IMG/VR virus record: IMGVR_UViG_3300030116_001308
Coordinates: 1 to 22,352 of that record
Length of the DNA stretch: 22,352 nt
From: a virus
Strand: one strand, 5' to 3'
Each line of letters begins with the position of its first letter. The stretch's first letter is position 1. Positions 2,333-20,938 of this stretch are shown here, piece after piece. The translations under genes and the position numbers were made by a program. The notes beneath the pieces are model-generated. The model worked only from the letters and a program-made list of their open reading frames with translations, did not search any database and was not told where the DNA came from.

Positions 2333-3445
2333 CTACAATTCTGCATCAAATTCCAAAAAGTTCGTGCTATTTCCATATGCGTTTAACATACAGCCTCTTC
2401 CTGCTGTCATATTAGCACCTACAACATTTACAACAATATACTCATGTGTTGAACCACCCTCAACACTTAATGCACTACAAGAATCAGCATCATTTGCATT
2501 CCAAATGTAGTAATCACTAGCAGAACCCCCAATAGATAAAGATGGGTCTACTCTCATATGAACTGGAGGATAAATCGAAATTTCTGCTTCATTAGAAGCT
2601 ACAATTTGACCAGTTCCATATCTGGTGTATCCACCATTAGTACCACCATCATTAGGGTATCTAAGCAAATATCTTTGACATTTTCTAAGTGTTGTTTCAT
2701 AAGGTTCATGCTCAAATGTTGTTGCGTTTTGTCCTATCTCTAATTGCATACCTGTAAGAAACCATGTATTGCCAATAGTATCAAAAACATTAACACCTTG
2801 ATTTGCAGCGTAATTTGCATCTGCATATGTTACAAAAGAAGCTGAATTGTTACCACTTGAGTAGGTTGTACCTGCCGCCAAAATCCAAACTATTTCAAGA
2901 CCATGTCCATTGTCATCATTAATTACCCCAGAAGTATCACCAGTAAAAGTAAGAGACTTTCTTTCCCATGTATTTGCTGAATCAATAGTGTATGTTAAGT
3001 TTGCTTGTTTATAACTATTGTCATTTTGAGCTATATTTACTGAGTAAGTTCCAGTTTTATTAGACTTTACATAAAAAGAAAGAGTAATATTCTTTGCTTC
3101 ACTAGTGCCAAAAGCTAATGACTGTAGATTTTGTGCTTCTATTCTATAAACCATCTGATTGTAATGATTTGTAGCAAGACTACTATCTGCTGTTGTTACA
3201 TTTACTTTAAGTGAGTTTGCAAACCCTTCTGGTGCAGAGCTATCTTGAGTCACAGTTGCTGCTCCACTATTATTCCCAAGACTTGTCATAATCCTATCAA
3301 GACAATATGCGTTGTTAGAAAAAGAAAAACTTGTTCCTCTTTGACTAACATTCATTGCACCATTGATAATCAAATTCCTATTTACTCCACCACCCCCTGC
3401 ATTGATGTTGCCTATAAGATTTGCTAAATCTGCTGCTTTGCTCAT
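2333..3445 (-). CDS. Tail fibre / receptor-binding protein with jelly-roll carbohydrate-binding-like domain
   Basis: A 370-residue protein, the longest in the fibre array and the last one transcribed. Its start has GGAT eight bases upstream. Residues 20-35 read NRNLIINGAMNVSQRG, a motif common at the start of phage fibre heads. Residues about 35-240 are Ser/Thr/Asn-rich and beta-rich, with a 'GMQLEIG' strand, resembling carbohydrate-binding jelly rolls. The TTFEHEPYETTLRKCQRYL motif at about 242-260 is widely shared among phage fibres. The C-terminal ~100 residues are Gly/Asn-rich and likely form the distal tip. It probably binds host surface glycans. Any enzymatic activity is not visible. 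Confidence 0.75.
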   Translation of the reverse strand: MSKAADLANLIGNINAGGGGVNRNLIINGAMNVSQRGTSFSFSNNAYCLDRIMTSLGNNSGAATVTQDSSAPEGFANSLKVNVTTADSSLATNHYNQMVYRIEAQNLQSLAFGTSEAKNITLSFYVKSNKTGTYSVNIAQNDNSYKQANLTYTIDSANTWERKSLTFTGDTSGVINDDNGHGLEIVWILAAGTTYSSGNNSASFVTYADANYAANQGVNVFDTIGNTWFLTGMQLEIGQNATTFEHEPYETTLRKCQRYLLRYPNDGGTNGGYTRYGTGQIVASNEAEISIYPPVHMRVDPSLSIGGSASDYYIWNANDADSCSALSVEGGSTHEYIVVNVVGANMTAGRGCMLNAYGNSTNFLEFDAEL

Positions 3446-3449
3446 GCTG

Positions 3450-3965
3450 TCATCCTATTAAAAATCCAGAACAATGTGTTCCTAAATCATTATTCAAGTC
3501 AGTGCTATTTTCAGCTTGAGGTATGACATAAAAAGTTTCGCCTTGTGAAAAAGTAAGTATAAGTTGAGACATTCTATGACTATATTGACCGCCACTACCT
3601 GTTGGGAGAGGATGTCCAGAGTGCACACTACCTAATTGTGATCCTCCCTTGTAAACCCTAAAAACAACATATCTTGACGCGGTATTATGATGTATGGTCA
3701 ATGCAAAATTAATTTGATATGTTCCTGCTATGGGTGCTGTGAATTGCCTATCTGTTGTACTCCAACAATTTCCAATATTTGTTAATGTAGTCGTGTAAGG
3801 AGCTTTTGACGTTTCACCAGAACCAAAACTGTAACTTCCACTTGCAAAATAAGCAAACCACATGGGTTTTGTAGGCTGTAATACTCTTCCTGCTGTATCC
3901 ACAGTCATAGCCGTAGTAGAGTTTGTTGCGTCTTGTATTGTATTTACTTTAAGAATTGATGCCAT
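3450..3965 (-). CDS. C1q-like fibre head protein (class A)
   Basis: This 171-residue protein has an N-terminal peptide, MASILKVNTIQD, then an AMTVDTAGRVLQPTKP linker (residues 19-34) and a C1q/TNF-like jelly roll with the signature FTAPIAGTYQINF at 75-87. It ends in CSGFLIG. The C1q fold forms trimers and, in phages, is used for surface recognition. The same three-part design recurs in the genes at 3969-4451, 5733-6359 and 7780-8298. The gene ends four bases upstream of the 370-residue fibre's start. The family assignment is by motif, and trimeric adhesin function is inference from C1q-like proteins. Confidence 0.75.
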   Translation of the reverse strand: MASILKVNTIQDATNSTTAMTVDTAGRVLQPTKPMWFAYFASGSYSFGSGETSKAPYTTTLTNIGNCWSTTDRQFTAPIAGTYQINFALTIHHNTASRYVVFRVYKGGSQLGSVHSGHPLPTGSGGQYSHRMSQLILTFSQGETFYVIPQAENSTDLNNDLGTHCSGFLIG

Positions 3966-3997
3966 TGTTTATCCTAGTAAAAATCCAGAAAAATGTG
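3454..3997. repeat. Conserved 25-base end shared by two class A genes
   Basis: The 3' ends of the adjacent C1q-like genes share 23 of 25 bases: positions 3454-3478 and 3973-3997, both encoding CSGFLIG-like or HFSGFLLG-like tails. The middle of the two genes is much less similar. This is a short homology at the variable-domain boundary that could support recombination. Confidence 0.55.
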
Positions 3998-4451
3998 AAA
4001 AATTGTTTTGTGGACTTGTTGTTCCATATGTTGGCACTCCATTATTGACTTGAACATAATCACCAACAGAAAGAGATGCTACTGTAGTAAACGAACCAGT
4101 AAAATCATTATCAAGTTCAGTACGATTTTGAACTTTTGCATAGGATTGTCCATTAATAAATAATTCTGTACCAAAATAAGCATCAGTTCCATCATTATCA
4201 CTTAAAATAGCAACGGAAAATACATATACTCCTGCTATTGGTGCAGTAAATCTTCCATTACTTGTATCATAATGTCCACCTTGATTAACCATAGCAGTAT
4301 CAAATATAACTATCCCTGCATTATTTTGAGATGTTCTTCTTGCCATAAAAGCGGGTCTTGAAGGAGTTAATATTCTACCTGTGCTATCTATCGTCATAGC
4401 ACTTGTGCCACCAGAATGTTTTATTGCATCTACATGAAGTTCGCTTGCCAT
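3969..4451 (-). CDS. C1q-like fibre head protein (class A)
   Basis: A 160-residue paralogue of the neighbouring class A proteins. It starts MASELHVDAIKHSGG, has AMTIDSTGRILTPSRP at residues 18-33, the jelly-roll signature FTAPIAGVYVF at 68-78, and ends HFSGFLLG. The last ~25 bases (3973-3997) match the end of the 3450-3965 gene (3454-3478) at 23 of 25 positions, pointing to recent duplication or recombination between them. The start codon overlaps the upstream stop by one base (TAATG). The probable role is a virion-surface adhesin; the receptor is unknown. Confidence 0.75.
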   Translation of the reverse strand: MASELHVDAIKHSGGTSAMTIDSTGRILTPSRPAFMARRTSQNNAGIVIFDTAMVNQGGHYDTSNGRFTAPIAGVYVFSVAILSDNDGTDAYFGTELFINGQSYAKVQNRTELDNDFTGSFTTVASLSVGDYVQVNNGVPTYGTTSPQNNFSHFSGFLLG

Positions 4452-4996
4452 TACTGTGCTATCTCCTTGATTATAATCATAGGTTTAATATAGCCTATTG
4501 CTGCGGTGTCGGTAACTGTATGATGATGATAGAGGTTAGAACTATGTCCTGATTCATTTTGACAATAAAGAGAGTATGTTCTTGCATTTGTAGTGCCTGC
4601 AACTTCTTGAGCAGTAATAGTCATCATGTCAGCATCATTAGCATCATGGTCACGGTGTCTAGCAGTAGCGTGCATACTAGTTCTACTACCTTGATTACTA
4701 CCTATACTAATAGCTGCGCTAGTATCGTAGTTTAATATTCTCCAATGTCTCATAGTTGTTGCATTGTTACACCCAACCAATAAATTAAATTGAATATAGA
4801 TTATTGAGTTTGCAAACTTAGGAGTAATAGACGTTCTCATTCCAGAACTTACTTCTGTGAAGGTTGTTACATTGAGAGTGCTACCACCTGTATCAGGGTT
4901 ATTTATTATCGTTTGTAGTGTATAACCACTTGGCATCTGAATAGTATCAGATGTACTTTTTCCCTCAATCTTATCTACTAATAATCTACTGGTCAT
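4451..4996 (-). CDS. Fibre-associated protein with ITPKF motif (class B)
   Basis: This 181-residue protein belongs to the second paralogue class. It begins MTSRLLVDKIEGKS, then MPSGYTLQTI (21-30), the class B signature ITPKFANSIIYI at 57-68, and ends MIIIKEIAQ. The Ser/Thr and beta content suggests a single beta-sandwich domain. Proteins of the form 'L-VD-I-G-T ... MPSG ... ITPKF/S-SKIL' are frequent in marine phage tail regions (recollection). It overlaps the upstream MPYIG gene's stop in an ATGA junction. The N-terminal peptide resembles that of the class A C1q proteins, so both may dock on the same virion site. Confidence 0.65.
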   Translation of the reverse strand: MTSRLLVDKIEGKSTSDTIQMPSGYTLQTIINNPDTGGSTLNVTTFTEVSSGMRTSITPKFANSIIYIQFNLLVGCNNATTMRHWRILNYDTSAAISIGSNQGSRTSMHATARHRDHDANDADMMTITAQEVAGTTNARTYSLYCQNESGHSSNLYHHHTVTDTAAIGYIKPMIIIKEIAQ

Positions 4997-5454
4997 ACTA
5001 TTGTATACACTCCGTTAACTGTGATTGTAGCATTTGTAACTGTTATAGGCCCTGCTGACAATCCATTTGTACCACTTGGAATCGTTACATCTGCGGTGAT
5101 ACTATTACCGTTAGTTCGTATTATACTATTATTTCCAAGAAAAGGATAGCGTGTATCTGATTCTGCTTTGGTGTAGCTGTTGGCTATGCTGAAAGCATCA
5201 TACACTATAATCTCAATCACATCATTTAGAGATGCACCAGTGGTTAGAACTACCGTTGTACCAGATGTAGCTGTATAGTCTTCAGCACTTTTTAATAATA
5301 TTCCGTTCTGAAAAACGTCACAGTAAACGGAGTCCGTATATGTGAGGACGTTTGCATTGGCATCTGAGCCACTAAACGAAGTCTGACCTGCTGTGGCTTG
5401 GTATATGAAGCGTGTTCTAACGCCTTGGTTGGGTGCTTTTCCTATGTATGGCAT
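4993..5454 (-). CDS. MPYIG-type tail fibre protein (class C)
   Basis: This 153-residue protein starts MPYIGKAPNQGVRTRFIYQA. It contains a beta-rich domain with 'DVFQNGILLKSAEDYTATSG' (about 48-67), a pattern seen in phage fibre proteins where an N-G-x-L/I turn precedes 'DY', and a C-terminal TIPSGTNGLSAGPITVTN followed by ATITVNG. The gene at 8295-8744 shares the MPYIG start, the same domain order and a similar C-terminal strand pattern, so the two are paralogues. A SYTKAESDTRYPFLGN segment at about 92-107 resembles the KxExD(T/A)RY linkers found in fibre shafts. Likely a short fibre or baseplate-proximal adaptor. Confidence 0.65.
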   Translation of the reverse strand: MPYIGKAPNQGVRTRFIYQATAGQTSFSGSDANANVLTYTDSVYCDVFQNGILLKSAEDYTATSGTTVVLTTGASLNDVIEIIVYDAFSIANSYTKAESDTRYPFLGNNSIIRTNGNSITADVTIPSGTNGLSAGPITVTNATITVNGVYTIV

Positions 5455-5724
5455 TTAAATTTCTGCTTTCTCATTATTATCACTTACATTTTTTGCCGTA
5501 TCGACTACTTTTAAAGCATATGCTTGAGTTATTTGTGCGTCCTCTCCTGTTGCTATAGATATTGAATTAGCATTACAATGTGCAACTAGTTTTGCAATGA
5601 TTTCATCTTTTGCTTTCCTTGCTCTTTCAGTAATAGCATTATCGCACCATTCTTGTACTGAGAGACAAGAATACTCCAGAGCTTTAATTTGTGTGTCCGT
5701 TAAATTTATTGAAATATTTGGCAT
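5455..5724 (-). CDS. Conserved marine phage hypothetical protein (89 aa)
   Basis: An 89-residue protein beginning MPNISINLTDTQIKALEYSC with SVQEWCDNAITERARKAKDEI following. The 'LT-TQ-KAL-Y...W-NAI--RA--A-DEI' pattern is one I associate with small proteins found repeatedly in cyanophage and pelagiphage tail regions, with no assigned function. It is mostly helical, unlike its beta-rich neighbours, which fits a chaperone or assembly helper rather than a structural fibre. An AGGA ribosome binding site lies about eight bases before the start. It ends immediately before the MPYIG gene starts. Confidence 0.6.
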   Translation of the reverse strand: MPNISINLTDTQIKALEYSCLSVQEWCDNAITERARKAKDEIIAKLVAHCNANSISIATGEDAQITQAYALKVVDTAKNVSDNNEKAEI

Positions 5725-5732
5725 TTTTTTTC

Positions 5733-6359
5733 CTAACCTATTAGATGTCCTGCGAAGTATGAATATTGTTGACCTTGAGAACTGTGAAATTCTCCACCAT
5801 TTGCACCCCCTCCTCTTATTTCTACATAATCACCAGAACTAAGATTAATCTCTGCGTTTGCATAAATGCGATGGTATTCGTTATCTGATTGATCTCTTGT
5901 GCTTCTAAATTCAGCATTTAAAACCCCATTAAGATATACTTTTACATAAACCATTCCTGCTGTACCAGTGTTATGCCAATGGGCGGCAGAAAATGAATAT
6001 GTGCCATCTATAGGTGCTGTAAAACGATAATTACTAGTATTATAATTATTACCTATGTCATGGAGTTCAGTGTTGTAGGGTATAGTAGCTTCTGATGATG
6101 TATTTGTGCTACCAGTGGTGGTAACTCTAAATGCAGGATTGCTTGGTTTAGTTACATGACCACTAGCATCAACAACCATATATGGTGTAGTTCCAAGTGT
6201 AGAGCCAAGACCTATAGTTAAACTGTCTGTGCTGTCATCTAGTCCAATGTGAAAGTCTTGGGCATTACCATCAAACACAATAGACCTATCTGATGCTGAA
6301 CCTCCACCTAGTGTTAAGGGATTATCTACTCCACCACCTCTAACTTTAGTTAATGCCAC
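5733..6359 (-). CDS. C1q-like fibre protein with extended N-terminal domain (class A)
   Basis: At 208 residues this is the longest class A protein. Instead of the short 'M-S-L-VD-I' peptide it begins MALTKVRGGGVDN and carries SIVFDGNAQDFHIGLDD at 26-42 and SLTIGLGSTLGTTPYMVVDA at 46-65, a module typical of marine phage fibre N-termini. It then rejoins the class A pattern with GHVTKPSNPAF at 67-77 and the C1q-like signature FTAPIDGTYSF at 113-123, ending in YFAGHLIG. The longer N-terminus suggests it could be the anchor of a complex or attach elsewhere on the virion. A neighbouring chaperone-like gene lies nine bases upstream. Confidence 0.75.
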   Translation of the reverse strand: MALTKVRGGGVDNPLTLGGGSASDRSIVFDGNAQDFHIGLDDSTDSLTIGLGSTLGTTPYMVVDASGHVTKPSNPAFRVTTTGSTNTSSEATIPYNTELHDIGNNYNTSNYRFTAPIDGTYSFSAAHWHNTGTAGMVYVKVYLNGVLNAEFRSTRDQSDNEYHRIYANAEINLSSGDYVEIRGGGANGGEFHSSQGQQYSYFAGHLIG

Positions 6360-6368
6360 TTCTTACTC

Positions 6369-6782
6369 CTAGCTTGGTTTAGTTGGAAACTTTACACTAC
6401 TCATGTCTAATCCACCATTACTATCTAGCTTTGGATCAGAATTAGCAGGTAAGTCTCTAAGTTCTTGTCTATACGTTTTCATGGCACTTGACATGGTTAC
6501 ATCACCTAACGCAGTCCAATCTGTTTCTGCCAGTAATCTATCTCGTTCTACACGAAGCAATCGCATTGGCTCACGGCTTTGCAGTAACGTCTTTTCACCT
6601 GCTACCTGTGCGTAATTTACACCCCAGTCCTTTGGGTCTGCACTTTCTATAGCTGAACCATTTTTATCTGCTCCAGTAACCTTACGAAACATTTCGTTAA
6701 ACTCTTCTTCATTTGTAGGCTCTCCTCTAAGAACCCACTCTGTAACTCCTAAACTCGTTAATGCGTTTGCTATTGTTGTCAT
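6369..6782 (-). CDS. Tail fibre assembly chaperone-like protein
   Basis: This 137-residue protein has an N-terminal motif, LTSLGVTEWVLRGEPTNEEE (residues 8-27) with FNEMFRKVTG following, common in cyanophage tail genes. Near the C-terminus it has RDRLLAETDWT at 80-90 and TYRQELRDLP at 103-112, the hallmark of phage tail-assembly chaperones (Phage_tail_APC, PF16778-like) that help fibre folding. In those proteins the 'R-LL--TDW...YRQ-LRD-P' block is the conserved domain. It sits in the middle of the fibre array and overlaps the preceding gene by ATGA, which fits a role in folding or loading several of the neighbouring fibre proteins. Confidence 0.75.
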   Translation of the reverse strand: MTTIANALTSLGVTEWVLRGEPTNEEEFNEMFRKVTGADKNGSAIESADPKDWGVNYAQVAGEKTLLQSREPMRLLRVERDRLLAETDWTALGDVTMSSAMKTYRQELRDLPANSDPKLDSNGGLDMSSVKFPTKPS

Positions 6783-7279
6783 TGTGAAATCTCCTGTAAC
6801 ATAATTTGTGTTAATCTATGGTCATCATTTGCGGCTATCCCAACACCTGCGGACATTCTGTAATACCACGTTATAGTTATCTCATTGGCATTTGGGAAAC
6901 TTTGTAAAATGATTGTTGGTTGACTTGTCGAAAATCCAGTGCCACTACCACCATAATCAATGTTTCTGTATGGACTTTCACTGTTTGAAATATCAGCACT
7001 ATTAGAAACATCATAAAGTTTTGTCCAACATTGTAAATCACTGCCACCATTATTAAATCCACTTATACCAATAGTTGCAGTAATTAACAGTTTAGAAGTA
7101 GAAAACTTAGGAGTAATAGAACATCTAAAGGCTGTACTCGCTTCTGCATAAGTAGATGAAGAAGTAGATACAAGTGTTCTGTTGATAGTTTGCACTGTCT
7201 GAATAACATGACCACTAGGCATAGCCACTGTTCCTGCTGTTGTCTTGCCCTGTATCGTGTCTACTGATAGTGTACTCAT
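6779..7279 (-). CDS. Fibre-associated protein with ITPKF motif (class B)
   Basis: This 166-residue protein begins MSTLSVDTIQGKTTAG and has AMPSGHVIQTV at 19-29, ITPKFSTSKLLI at 55-66, and an end of IMLQEISQ. It is the same length as, and clearly paralogous to, its upstream neighbour (7276-7776) and the 181-residue protein at 4451-4996. Its start overlaps the upstream stop by ATGA. A beta-sandwich adhesin or fibre-tip role is plausible. The C-terminal EISQ/EIAQ ending is specific to this class and may be an interface. Confidence 0.65.
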   Translation of the reverse strand: MSTLSVDTIQGKTTAGTVAMPSGHVIQTVQTINRTLVSTSSSTYAEASTAFRCSITPKFSTSKLLITATIGISGFNNGGSDLQCWTKLYDVSNSADISNSESPYRNIDYGGSGTGFSTSQPTIILQSFPNANEITITWYYRMSAGVGIAANDDHRLTQIMLQEISQ

Positions 7280-7776
7280 TGGGCAATCTCCATGATGGTT
7301 ATTCGTGTTGGTACTGCTATATCGTTATTAGCTCCTCTGCCACCTATGTTTGTTGCTCCATTATATGCCGCCGCTTTTAATTTATACGTTATTGCACTTG
7401 TCGTTGATGGACTATCTAAAAACTCAAAAGTAAAAGCTTTTACATCAAACCCACTACCAGAACTGTGAGTTGGGGTTGTTACTGCTCCAATAACATTGTA
7501 GTAGTCGCCACCAGTCCCACTACCTATTTCTGTGGAATCTCTGAATAGTTTAAAGTAACACGCATTATTTTGGTCAGAATTTGCTACACCACTGCACTTA
7601 ATCAGTATTTTTGAAGTATTAAATTTTGGTGTTATTGTTTGTGTAACAACATCTGCATAAGTATTAGAAGCGTTTGCTTGTATTGTAAGACGTTCTCCTT
7701 GCAACACTTGAACAACATATTTGTGTACACCATCTGCTGTCTGTCCTCGTATGCTGTCTACTCTTAATGTACTCAT
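7276..7776 (-). CDS. Fibre-associated protein with ITPKF motif (class B)
   Basis: Another 166-residue class B protein: MSTLRVDSIRGQTADG at the N-terminus, ITPKFNTSKILI at 48-59, and ITIMEIAQ at the C-terminus. The first ten residues differ from the neighbouring class B protein (MSTLSVDTIQ) at three positions only, while the middle diverges strongly. That is the expected picture for a conserved docking peptide attached to variable domains. It lacks the MPSG element present in its paralogues. It sits three bases downstream of the class A gene at 7780-8298. Confidence 0.65.
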   Translation of the reverse strand: MSTLRVDSIRGQTADGVHKYVVQVLQGERLTIQANASNTYADVVTQTITPKFNTSKILIKCSGVANSDQNNACYFKLFRDSTEIGSGTGGDYYNVIGAVTTPTHSSGSGFDVKAFTFEFLDSPSTTSAITYKLKAAAYNGATNIGGRGANNDIAVPTRITIMEIAQ

Positions 7777-7779
7777 TGT

Positions 7780-8298
7780 TTATCCTACTAAATATCCTGT
7801 GCAAACATTCCAACTAGTACCTGCTGACAAAGAAATACTACTTTGTGCCTGTGCAAAAAACTGAATGTAGTCATTAGCTGCAAGTAAAAGAGCAATACTA
7901 GCACTATAGTTTTGGTCTCCAGTAGTTTGACTATCATTATATTCAAGGTACTGAATACCACTACCATTTTTAAAAATTCTTTGTCTGATGTAATCTCCAG
8001 AACTTATTCCATAAACATTTAAGTTCCAATTAAACTGATAAACCCCTGCCACTGGTGCTCTAAAACTGTGGTTGTCACTACCAGAGCTTGAAGTGTTAAA
8101 ATGTCCACCAACATTACTTACAACTCCATCAAAAGGAATAATCGTTAAAGTACCAAGACTAGTAGGATTTGAACCACCATTATCTACATAAACATGAAAA
8201 AAAGGTCTGGCAGAAGTAAGTACACGACCACTAGAATCAATAGTTTGAGCCGTAGTGCCATTTGTATGTTTTATATTCTGTACTAGAAGGTTGCTCAT
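7780..8298 (-). CDS. C1q-like fibre head protein (class A)
   Basis: This 172-residue protein has the N-terminal peptide MSNLLVQNIKHTNG, AQTIDSSGRVLTSARP at 17-32, the C1q-like signature FRAPVAGVYQF at 79-89 and the class A ending VCTGYLVG. It is the first C1q-like protein in transcription order. It overlaps the preceding MPYIG gene by ATGA. The GHFNTSSSG...F-AP-AG-Y pattern matches the C1q/TNF-like jelly-roll core. It is probably a trimeric surface adhesin; the receptor is unknown. Confidence 0.75.
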   Translation of the reverse strand: MSNLLVQNIKHTNGTTAQTIDSSGRVLTSARPFFHVYVDNGGSNPTSLGTLTIIPFDGVVSNVGGHFNTSSSGSDNHSFRAPVAGVYQFNWNLNVYGISSGDYIRQRIFKNGSGIQYLEYNDSQTTGDQNYSASIALLLAANDYIQFFAQAQSSISLSAGTSWNVCTGYLVG

Positions 8299-8744
8299 AT
8301 GATTGCTAAATTGCCCCCTGAGTTTACTGTGATAGTTACACCTGAAGATACTGTCAAAGGCCCAGTTGCTGTAGCATTCTCTGTTGCTTCTATGGTTGTA
8401 TCTACATCTACAGTTTGTGAGTTAACTCTAAACATACCACCATTTTTAAAGTTTCCTTTATTCTGAACAGGTATAGTTGTGCTTACATCAGTTGCGCCAA
8501 GATAAATTACAAAAATATTACCTGTGCCACTTGATGGTGCTTCTGTAAATGTAAGACTTGTCCCGTTTGGTACAGTAAATGCGTCTACGCTCTCCTGTAT
8601 TACACCGTCAACACTTACTACAATGTCTTCTTGAGTAACAGTATGGTTCAACGTAAAGACCGTTGTAGAGCCATCTCCGTTGAACTCCTGCGTTGCAGGT
8701 CTTGATGAAAAACTAGAACCAACTTGGCTTCCTATGTATGGCAT
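8295..8744 (-). CDS. MPYIG-type tail fibre protein (class C)
   Basis: A 149-residue protein beginning MPYIGSQVGSSFSSRP. Residues about 17-80 form a beta-rich domain with 'TQEFNGDGSTTVFTLNH' and 'EDIVVSVDGVIQE' strands, a pattern widespread in phage fibre proteins. A C-terminal part carries NKGNFKNGGMFRVN, then TATGPLTVSSGVTITVNSGG. It is the paralogue of the 153-residue protein at 4993-5454, sharing the MPYIG start and the C-terminal strand repeats. The start has a GGAG site. It may serve as an adaptor between the tail and the C1q-like and ITPKF proteins that follow it. Confidence 0.65.
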   Translation of the reverse strand: MPYIGSQVGSSFSSRPATQEFNGDGSTTVFTLNHTVTQEDIVVSVDGVIQESVDAFTVPNGTSLTFTEAPSSGTGNIFVIYLGATDVSTTIPVQNKGNFKNGGMFRVNSQTVDVDTTIEATENATATGPLTVSSGVTITVNSGGNLAII

Positions 8745-8752
8745 TACTTCTC

Positions 8753-9079
8753 CTACGTACTAATTGCATCAACCGCAGACACCCAAACATCTGCACTACT
8801 TGCTGTATTACTTTTTACTTTAAGTACATCATTGTTTTGTAGCACAATTTTTGCACCTCCGTCTAATACTTGTAACGCTGAACCTGCAGGTATTGGCGCA
8901 TTCTTTACGATATAAAAGTCGTTAGATTGATCATTAATAAATACATCCACAGTTATTTGACTTGTTGTAACATTAGCTACATTAATCCCTACAATAGCGT
9001 CATCTGAGTTTGCTGTGCGTAGAGTTACAGCACTTGTTCCTACATTTCGCTGTTTGTCTCTTTCAAAATCTTGTGCCAT
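8753..9079 (-). CDS. Small beta-rich tail-associated protein
   Basis: This 108-residue protein starts MAQDFERDKQRNVGTSAVTL and consists of alternating beta-strand-like stretches (VGINVANVTTSQITVDVFI, IPAGSALQVLDGGAKIVLQN, NDVLKVKSN, ADVWVSAVD). That alternation is the usual look of small Ig-like or beta-sandwich phage proteins found just before fibres in marine phages. The ribosome binding site is strong (AGGAGGTTGA directly before the ATG), suggesting high expression. No enzymatic motif is visible. A head-decoration or tail-adaptor role is possible, and the exact role is unknown. Confidence 0.6.
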   Translation of the reverse strand: MAQDFERDKQRNVGTSAVTLRTANSDDAIVGINVANVTTSQITVDVFINDQSNDFYIVKNAPIPAGSALQVLDGGAKIVLQNNDVLKVKSNTASSADVWVSAVDAIST

Positions 9080-9089
9080 TCAACCTCCT

Positions 9090-9434
9090 CTACAATGCGA
9101 TCGCCATTGCGGTAGCAAAACCCTTAGTTGCCGATCCTATATCGTCAGCAACTTCTGATGCACTTCTGCCCTCAATGCTCGTTCCATTTACTCGAAGAAA
9201 GTCGTCATCGGCAACTCCGCTAGTCGCAACTAGAATATTTCCATTTGATATACCAGTCGCTAATCCTAAAGTTGTTCTAGCTGCAGCTGCGTCTGCGTCA
9301 TCGATTAAAGAAGCGCCAAACGTGCTTATCGTGCTTGTTTCAACTTTATCCGAGTTAAGATTTGTAAAGTTTGCATCTACTTCATTGTTAGTTAGGGGCG
9401 AACCTTTGCCCGATCTTGTTACAATAGTAGCCAT
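9090..9434 (-). CDS. Tail fibre N-terminal-type protein, short version
   Basis: This 114-residue protein begins MATIVTRSGKGSPLTNNEVD, followed by ANFTNLNSDK, the virion-attachment start seen in many long phage tail fibres. It continues with DDADAAAARTTLGLATG and FLRVNGTSIEGRSASEVADDIG, shaft-like repeats that in long fibres lead into several hundred more residues. Here the frame stops at residue 114, so only the anchoring part is made as a separate protein. A ribosome binding site (AAAGGGG) precedes it. It may connect the separately encoded heads downstream to the tail. It might instead be a truncated remnant, though the frame is clean. Confidence 0.65.
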   Translation of the reverse strand: MATIVTRSGKGSPLTNNEVDANFTNLNSDKVETSTISTFGASLIDDADAAAARTTLGLATGISNGNILVATSGVADDDFLRVNGTSIEGRSASEVADDIGSATKGFATAMAIAL

Positions 9435-9451: not shown

Positions 9452-9910
9452 TTAACTTGCTGACAATGTTATTGTCCAAGTCACAGACATTGTATCATCA
9501 GCGGCTTTATTAACAACACTAAATACGGTTCGGCAGAGCATGTCACCACCAGAAGCCGCATTAAATATACCTGCTTCGGTTACTGCACCAGTTGCATCAC
9601 CTGCTTCAAAAGCAGACACGTAAACAACTTTTTCATTGTTCGAGCCTGAAATTGTTGTGCTATCAAGTGCTTCTCTTGACCCTAGTAAAGTTACCAAATC
9701 AGTTTGAGAAGCTGCTGCGGCTGTTGTTCCAGAGCCCAACCCCATATGTGACATGACGCTTTTAGAAGCATCTTTCATACGGGAGGCTATGTACTCCAAG
9801 CCTTTGTTGACAACAAGGTTTTTTACTTCCCTCTCGTCCTTGATGTTTCCGGCCTTGTCCTTTAGGACGATGTTAAGCTGACCGGAGAGCTTTAAATTTT
9901 CATTTATCAT
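9452..9910 (-). CDS. Conserved phage tail-region protein (152 aa)
   Basis: This 152-residue protein starts MINENLKLSGQLNIVLKDKAG and has EREVKNLVVNKGLEYIASRM, then a Gly/Ala/Ser-rich beta domain and a C-terminal VTWTITLSAS. The 'GQLNIVLKD--GNIKDER-VKNLVV--G' opening is one I recognise from hypothetical tail-region proteins in many phages; no specific activity is known. The VTWTITLS ending resembles the last strand of small fibre domains. The start has AGGAGA five bases upstream. It lies between the repeat protein and the fibre anchor, which suggests a tail structural component. Confidence 0.6.
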   Translation of the reverse strand: MINENLKLSGQLNIVLKDKAGNIKDEREVKNLVVNKGLEYIASRMKDASKSVMSHMGLGSGTTAAAASQTDLVTLLGSREALDSTTISGSNNEKVVYVSAFEAGDATGAVTEAGIFNAASGGDMLCRTVFSVVNKAADDTMSVTWTITLSAS

Positions 9911-20864: not shown

Positions 20865-20938
20865 GGGGGTCTGGTGTAATGGTAGCACGACAAGTTCCAA
20901 CCTTGTAAGCGTGGGTTCAATTCCTACGACCTCTGCCA
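20865..20938 (+). tRNA. tRNA-Trp (anticodon CCA)
   Basis: A complete cloverleaf can be drawn. The acceptor is GGGGGTC / GACCTCT with two G-U pairs, and the D stem is GTGT / GCAC with loop AATGGTA. The anticodon stem is ACAAG / CTTGT with loop TTCCAAC, giving anticodon CCA at 20897-20899. The variable loop is AAGC, and the T stem GTGGG / CCTAC has loop TTCAATT. The discriminator is G and a 3' CCA is encoded (20936-20938). It lies within the rightward operon of small genes. It reads the single Trp codon UGG and may supplement host supply or replace a damaged host tRNA. Confidence 0.92.

Follow-up and report, generated by a model that had tools for sequence, protein, structure and literature searches.

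A DNA fragment of 22,352 nt from an ocean podovirus (IMG/VR record IMGVR_UViG_3300030116_001308; this whole stretch is referred to as the window) probably encodes a receptor-binding apparatus that is split over several proteins: heads would dock on the tip of an adaptor through N-terminal tags, much as in phage K1-5, although here each adaptor would take three tagged TNF-like heads. Two short trimeric adaptors would each plug into the tail via a T7-type fibre N-domain and, instead of carrying a fused receptor-binding domain, end in a C-terminal motif of ~45 residues, which would form a dock. Three separately translated heads, in this window all predicted to be TNF/C1q-like jelly rolls, would attach to the dock via short, position-specific tags, and a chaperone encoded in the operon probably helps them to fold. 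As attachment would depend on the tag only, head domains could be freely replaced by recombination, allowing rapid changes of host specificity. The layout, the conservation of tags against the replacement of heads, the three-head rule and the covariation of adaptor and tag are established by sequence comparison, and the folds of heads and adaptors are predicted by modelling; we infer that the adaptors are trimers and that the heads dock on them physically, are incorporated into virions and bind receptors.

Architecture of the adaptor and head genes

The window contains two repeated units, each consisting of an adaptor followed by three single-domain heads, all encoded on the minus strand. The head classes are, in order, C1q, EIA and EIA after adaptor 1, and EIA, C1q and C1q after adaptor 2; all six heads carry the N-terminal tag. 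An earlier note on this DNA had described one array of at least seven short proteins, six of them with a nearly identical start. The seven are indeed intact minus-strand ORFs and the array does consist of separately translated tagged heads, but these form two units of an adaptor and three heads, and the seventh protein is untagged.

Adaptor 1 (149 aa; 8295..8744) combines a T7-type fibre N-domain with the ~45-aa putative dock motif (..TENATATGPLTVSSGVTITVNSGGNLAII). It matches Pfam Phage_T7_tail with an E-value of 1.4e-4, just under the curated cut-off, and the tail fibre family phrog_18673 (E 1.5e-21). Its first head (7780..8298) has the tag MSNLLVQNIKHTN and a C1q domain (PF00386, E 2.9e-8). 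The second (7276..7776; tag MSTLRVDSIRGQT) has a TNF-like domain of the EIA (ITPKF) class, as judged by AF2 and Foldseek, and the third (6779..7279; tag MSTLSVDTIQGKT) aligns with the EIA family. Directly before adaptor 1 lies a 108-aa virion-like protein (8753..9079; phrog_1276, E 9e-10), whose position is conserved, in phage HMO-2011 as well. The next protein, of 114 aa (9090..9434), has a weak match to the tail fibre family phrog_2282, and in relatives proteins as long as 991 aa start with the same N-terminus. The earlier note had named the 114-, 149- and 153-residue proteins as candidate partners of the heads; the latter two, the adaptors, are likely docks, while the first showed no link to the heads.

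Between the units are three further genes. A Tfa/APC-like tail assembly chaperone (6369..6782; PF16778, E 1.7e-12, 47.4 bits against a cut-off of 26.6) is 84–97% identical in most relatives and 67% in one (L017). It is followed by the untagged C1q fibre (5733..6359; E 3.5e-11), which has a GTG start and its own N-terminus, MALTKVRGGGVD, beginning MALTKVRGGG. An 89-aa protein (5455..5724), with no match in a Pfam search, is placed after C1q-ended fibres in relatives, and this synteny suggests a possible fibre-class-specific helper. Adaptor 2 (153 aa; 4993..5454) again has a T7-type fibre N-domain and the C-terminal motif (..SAGPITVTNATITVNGVYTIV). Its heads are an EIA protein (4451..4996; tag MTSRLLVDKIEGK; E 7.9e-6 to phrog_6942, a tail fibre C-terminal region) and two C1q proteins (3969..4451, tag MASELHVDAIKHSG, E 1.3e-18; 3450..3965, tag MASILKVNTIQDAT, E 3.1e-5, above the cut-off). 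The 370-aa protein beyond them (2333..3445; MSKAADLANLIGNI..NRNLIINGAM) is not a tagged head but a terminal tail fibre protein (phrog_4492 tail fibre, E 8.6e-52). The C1q-like class, as reported, thus comprises four proteins above the Pfam cut-off for PF00386 (E 3.1e-5 to 1.3e-18), the seventh protein included; the linker near AMTIDxxGRVLxPxxP is found in three forms, with the modified form in the seventh.

The predicted folds are among the evidence for the split apparatus. The AF2 model of the EIA head at 7276..7776 (mean pLDDT 79.5) matches the TNF-like trimeric lectins Pgp3, PLTL and BC2L-C in Foldseek (E < 1e-3, probability 1.00), from which the EIA heads are predicted to be TNF/C1q-like. 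The adaptor 2 model matches the fibre N-domains of LME-1 (9efk), P-SCSP1u (8i4m) and T7 (7boz), although this model has low confidence (pLDDT 69.7, pTM 0.45), above all towards its C-terminus. Sequence searches returned no solved relatives of the adaptor profile or of the GDLA heads found in other phages; the latter gave one weak Pfam match among 44 members, and in PHROGs they match only tail-fibre families and one family without function. No head matched the T4-like gp38 tip adhesin family in PHROG and Pfam searches.

Neighbouring genes of the arrays abut or overlap by 1–4 bases and most are preceded by a purine-rich, ribosome-binding-like site; separate translation within one operon, as the earlier note proposed, therefore fits. 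Close relatives do have long fibres at this locus (L012, with 94% capsid identity), which would suit an origin of the array by fragmentation of a long fibre gene. However, every gene has its own start, and we reject this extremely improbable reading because such own-start arrays, and their tags, are preserved in hundreds of loci as well as in isolates.

Conservation of the tag and replacement of the heads

The six tagged proteins begin MTSRLLVDKI, MSTLSVDTI, MSTLRVDSI, MASILKVNTI, MASELHVDAI and MSNLLVQNI. A strict pattern, M[SAT]x(1-2)LxV[DNQ]xI at the protein start, matches 6/6 of them and none of 824 control ORFs taken from array-free loci of relatives, by which chance N-terminal similarity is rejected. 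In profile–profile comparisons, EIA and C1q heads align only over the first ~25 residues (E 5e-8), as do EIA and GDLA heads (E 2e-7), with 94–95% probability in both cases.

Comparison of the same locus in relatives, a check proposed with the original observation, shows that the tags stay fixed while the heads vary. Between the window and eight relatives the adaptors are 85–98% identical and the heads 12–38%, with 13–14 of 14 tag residues kept in nearly all. Head 1 of adaptor 1 has an identical tag on heads of 20–32% identity, and head 3 keeps 13–14 of 14 residues with heads at 20–30%. When the heads after each adaptor are selected by position and not by tag, those after adaptor 1 have pairwise identities of 91–100% at residues 2–13 and ~10% past residue ~32. 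The same tags are found on different head classes: MSNLLVQNIK on 43 C1q and 13 GDLA heads, and MASELHVDAI on 19 C1q and 17 EIA heads. Head 2 of adaptor 2, a C1q head in the window, has a tag that is found on EIA heads in other phages. A diversity-generating retroelement was considered as the source of this variation, but the heads are replaced as whole domains and not point-varied.

It could be argued that the tag is not a dock but acts as a leader in folding, in translation or in recognition by a chaperone, as it sits at the gene start in an operon with a tail assembly chaperone gene. At most head positions, however, the tag peptide is conserved with mainly synonymous codon changes. Codons 2–14 of the heads after adaptor 1 have 2796 synonymous and 842 nonsynonymous differences; after adaptor 2, where two tag families are mixed, the counts are 2280 and 3008, and nonsynonymous changes are not rarer than synonymous ones. 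Since codons vary synonymously under a fixed peptide, the tag is not an RNA signal. It also covaries with the adaptor C-terminus (see below), leaving a slim chance for the leader reading.

Adaptor C-terminus and the number of heads

Adaptors with and without the ~45-residue C-terminal motif were compared across more than 300 loci. With a loose tag pattern, the next gene is tagged in 242/248 cases after motif-ending adaptors, compared with 71/2546 after genes that are neither; the position-defined sets and strict control described above followed this count. Adaptors that share the MSGYIGTQPVPQATQ N-domain but, instead of the motif, have a fused C-terminal region form a natural control, and they are not followed by tagged heads. 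Likewise, the motif and three EIA heads occur together in P-SSP7, while the fibres of P-SSP2, NATL1A-7 and SS120-1 have neither. Fused fibres, too, can end in an EIA or a C1q head domain; within the loci collected, none had the adaptor motif fused straight to a head in one chain.

From the C-terminal subtype of adaptor 2 one can predict which tag stands at position 1 (15/17 versus 0/45, Fisher p 1.5e-12), even where the N-domain is 94% identical. As the first tag lies next to this C-terminus in the DNA, the covariation could partly be co-inheritance, and the loci are related, so the counts are not independent events. The subtype also predicts the tags at positions 2 and 3, beyond the variable heads, which reduces but does not remove the co-inheritance reading. 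The suggestion that a common start on different beta domains is a docking tag is thus well supported by its conservation, by the unrelated head families that carry it and by its covariation with the adaptor C-terminus.

The idea of a single shared virion site has to be modified: there are two adaptors, the tags are position-specific within each set, and exactly three heads are present in 103/132 complete arrays, allowing for chaperone genes lying between heads. We consider it quite improbable that the heads compete for one site, giving virions with a random mix or just one; the general pattern LxVDxI common to the tags would suit such competition, but their position-specific sequences are strongly conserved and the head number holds at three without drift.

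The multi-receptor adhesin set suggested by the earlier note is one candidate arrangement, and a single heterotrimeric tip another. Within the docking model, each adaptor's three heads may form three homotrimers at three adaptor sites, or a stack, as separate receptor binders. Position-specific tags and the free mixing of C1q and EIA heads favour this form, to which we give somewhat less than an even chance; the ~45-residue end of a homotrimer offers little room for three distinct sites, and a constant number of three is not specially predicted. Alternatively, and rather doubtfully, they may form an obligate heterotrimer capping each adaptor trimer, a single A-B-C tip with one tag per adaptor chain, whose subunits the tags would address, giving combinatorial receptor tips. 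The head of human C1q is such an A-B-C heterotrimer; in phages, we know of no receptor tip that is a heterotrimer whose subunits can be exchanged freely. This arrangement fits the head number, exactly three in most arrays, the three position-specific tags and the trimer-forming fold, as well as head classes mostly fixed by position and GDLA heads that are mostly all-or-none within a set. Against it, EIA and C1q heads occur in one set and would need to form a trimer with each other, although no relationship between them is detectable beyond the tag; the head class at position 2 of adaptor 2 changes while its partners are unchanged; and in HMO-2011 one set combines GDLA heads with an EIA head and the other combines them with a C1q head.

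Comparison with known receptor-binding systems

If the docking model is correct, a phage could change hosts by swapping a domain of ~130 residues, with no need to remake the tail. In abundant ocean phages (HMO-2011 type and related cyanophages) host-recognition genes are mostly labelled tail fibre or hypothetical, and an adaptor with the C-terminal motif followed by three tagged heads provides a sequence rule for finding them. Tag, dock and head are defined parts, testable in already cultured isolates.

The same layout is found in HMO-2011, P-SSP7 and two freshwater cyanophages, where most of these genes are labelled tail fibre or hypothetical. The heads of P-SSP7 and MEP402 are mostly without the exact tags of this window, and no virion proteomics of the P-SSP7 heads was found in the literature examined. 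Puniceispirillum phage HMO-2011 (GU557055, phage1322_28 to _42) has the same order, with adaptors of 149 and 153 aa (56.7% and 71.9% identical to adaptors 1 and 2, respectively), three tagged heads each and chaperone genes; it differs in that two heads in each of its two sets end in GDLA. Its genes are annotated only as tail collar, tail fibre, tail-related, C1q or hypothetical.

The earlier note's interpretation is partly supported, and its remark that no function had been described for such an arrangement needs qualification, as both short-peptide adapters and hypervariable marine C1q genes have been described. According to the account in PMC6872550 (citing Leiman 2007), E. coli K1-5 and Salmonella SP6 have a small adapter, a trimer whose N-terminus resembles the T7 fibre, to which tailspikes attach by a conserved N-terminal heptapeptide or undecapeptide, and one K1-5 adapter binds two different tailspikes at two sites, a precedent for the homotrimer form. 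The window shares the T7 gp17-like adapter N-domain (Foldseek; Pfam weak for adaptor 1) and short conserved N-terminal peptides on the receptor-binding proteins. In contrast, its adaptors are ~150 and not ~300 aa, with two per phage and three heads each, and its heads are single C1q or TNF-like domains and not large tailspike depolymerases. The T4gp10-like docking domain is not clearly seen: the adaptor model, of low confidence in its C-terminal half, matches the T4 baseplate entry 5iv5_AC only with E 0.42.

In the branched systems of Klebsiella phages KP32/KP34 and the Menlow group, secondary receptor-binding proteins also have conserved N-terminal peptides, e.g. MALxxLV (PMC6872550), but the branching protein has its own receptor-binding domain, which the window adaptor lacks. 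In marine metaviromic islands, hypervariable C1q genes adjoin a phage tail fibre and are proposed to act in receptor binding or host recognition (PMC3909814); the parts of that account examined do not mention an adaptor, a common tag, sets of three heads or any specificity for position, and the present model suggests a reason for those genes. LME-1 orf22 (PDB 9efk), present as 18 chains in the portal–tail complex, likewise has a T7-type N-domain and an EIA head, but there a single fused chain of 658 residues contains both anchor and head.

Two adaptor-head units in the window

The window is a 22,352-base viral fragment from IMG/VR whose minus strand carries terminase, portal, scaffold, capsid and tail genes; a tRNA-Trp gene (20865-20938, +) lies on the strand opposite to these structural genes. 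Seven fibre heads proposed in an earlier note are all present where it had placed them, and six of the seven share the N-terminal peptide. By Pfam, four are C1q proteins; the remaining three form a class, denoted EIA, that contains ITPKF, ends in EIAQ or EISQ and is similar to long tail fibres at their C-terminal end.

The genes fall into two units, each an adaptor followed by three heads bearing a short N-terminal tag. Adaptor 1 (8295-8744) is followed by C1q, EIA and EIA heads and by a tail assembly chaperone (PF16778), after which come a distinct C1q fibre and a gene of 89 residues; the heads after adaptor 2 (4993-5454) are EIA, C1q and C1q. Both adaptors consist of an N-terminal fibre domain and a C-terminal motif of ~45 residues, with an end like GPITV..TVNG.YTIV. 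In the window (5455-5724) and the relatives L284, L286, L301 and L310, a ~89-residue protein (MPNISINLTDTQ..) comes after C1q-ended fibres and a ~92-residue MALTE.. protein after fibres with other ends; these are possibly helper genes specific to fibre class. A 152-residue protein (9452-9910, -) is strongly similar to phrog_5417 and weakly, below the cut-off, to the podophage GP4 fibre I protein gp80.

The array in relatives and isolates

A capsid scan yielded 80 loci, extended by three adaptor scans to more than 300. In this larger set, the gene after a motif-bearing adaptor carries the tag in 242 of 248 cases; where adaptors with the same N-domain have a fused C-terminal region and lack the motif, tagged heads do not come next. 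A strict form of the tag is found in 0 of 824 ORFs from relatives without the array. Exactly three heads are present in 103 of 132 complete arrays; on inspection, many of the exceptions listed seem to reflect an intervening chaperone gene or the counting of the next fibre. One relative (L017, capsid 84% identical) carries this array with different heads; another (L012, 94%) has two long fibres of 591 and 631 residues in its place. In L078, despite its close capsid (82% identical), the region downstream of the capsid gene showed no tagged heads; a 645-residue protein and then unrelated genes lie there.

Among isolates, HMO-2011 carries a pair of adaptors, each with three tagged heads. In P-SSP7 the motif forms the end of gp17, and three EIA heads whose N-termini are different come next; P-SSP2, NATL1A-7 and SS120-1, which are related to it, have neither motif nor such heads. 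In the freshwater cyanophages Mel-JY33 and Nsp-JY18 the motif is on a fibre of 422 residues, accompanied by exactly three heads; the tags largely match between the two phages, and the heads differ. In Methylophilales phage Melnitz (filed under Kyanoviridae), one head precedes the motif protein and two follow it. The fibres of the cyanopodoviruses P-SSP3, P-SCSP1u and P-GSP1 share a different C-terminal end, ..KKYKFNLTEVS/L, and are each followed by one short protein, head-like in P-GSP1 (E 1.5e-6); this end may be a second dock type, for a single head. Limnohabitans phage DC33 (PQ492659) is filed under Inoviridae, yet has 39 kb with tail-fibre-like genes, and that taxonomy line looks wrong.

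Tag conservation and covariation with the adaptor

Tags differ by position, with MSNLLVQNIKHTN, MSTLRVDSIRGQ and MSTLSVDTIQGK after adaptor 1 and MTSRLLVDKIEGK, MASELHVDAIKHSG and MASILKVNTIQDAT after adaptor 2. Between the window and eight relatives, adaptors are 85-98% identical and heads 12-38%, with 13-14 of 14 tag residues alike in nearly all cases. One tag is found on different head families, and only the tag aligns when family profiles are compared. In genes following adaptor 1, chosen by position alone, residues 2-13 are 91-100% identical and identity falls to ~10% beyond residue ~32; codon differences comprise 2796 synonymous and 842 nonsynonymous. Genes following adaptor 2, where two tag families are mixed, give 2280 and 3008, respectively.

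Adaptor 2 has three C-terminal subtypes. The end GVYTIV pairs with tag RLLVDKIEG and GFYTIL with ELRVDNLKG (Fisher p 1.5e-12), and GYWTVL accompanies QLKVDKLQG. The N-domain of one relative (L132) is 94% identical to that of the window, yet its adaptor has the GFYTIL end and its head the ELRVDNLKG tag. The same split holds at position 2 (11/11 tagged genes versus 0/41) and position 3 (10/10 versus 0/37), with variable heads in between. For adaptor 1 the split is similar and runs by head class. Part of this covariation could be due to the genes being neighbours in the DNA.

Predicted assembly and known systems

The EIA head model (pLDDT 79.5) matches TNF-like trimers, namely the Chlamydia Pgp3 C-terminal domain, the lectins PLTL and BC2L-C, BclA and C1q; the adaptor model, which is weak (pLDDT 69.7), matches T7-type fibre N-domains. 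Most simply, an adaptor would have lost its own receptor-binding domain and would hold three separately made heads through tag-dock contacts, the heads presumably being incorporated and binding receptors. The three may co-assemble as a heterotrimer, as the constant number and the mostly all-or-none sets of a further head family, GDLA, would suggest, or may form three independent homotrimers, which the mixing of EIA and C1q heads and, in HMO-2011, of GDLA with EIA or C1q would favour.

A search of open-licence papers found the tag, dock motif and three-head rule nowhere described. PMC3909814 and PMC7468147 describe C1q genes adjoining marine tail fibres as hypervariable host-recognition genes. 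C1q-head fusions are present in close relatives, and in the LME-1 phage (9efk) a single protein combines the N-domain with an EIA head as a fusion, with 18 chains in a portal-tail complex. In K1-5 and SP6, peptides of 7 and 11 residues attach two tailspikes to a ~300-residue adapter; in Klebsiella phages, conserved peptides serve the secondary RBPs (PMC6872550).
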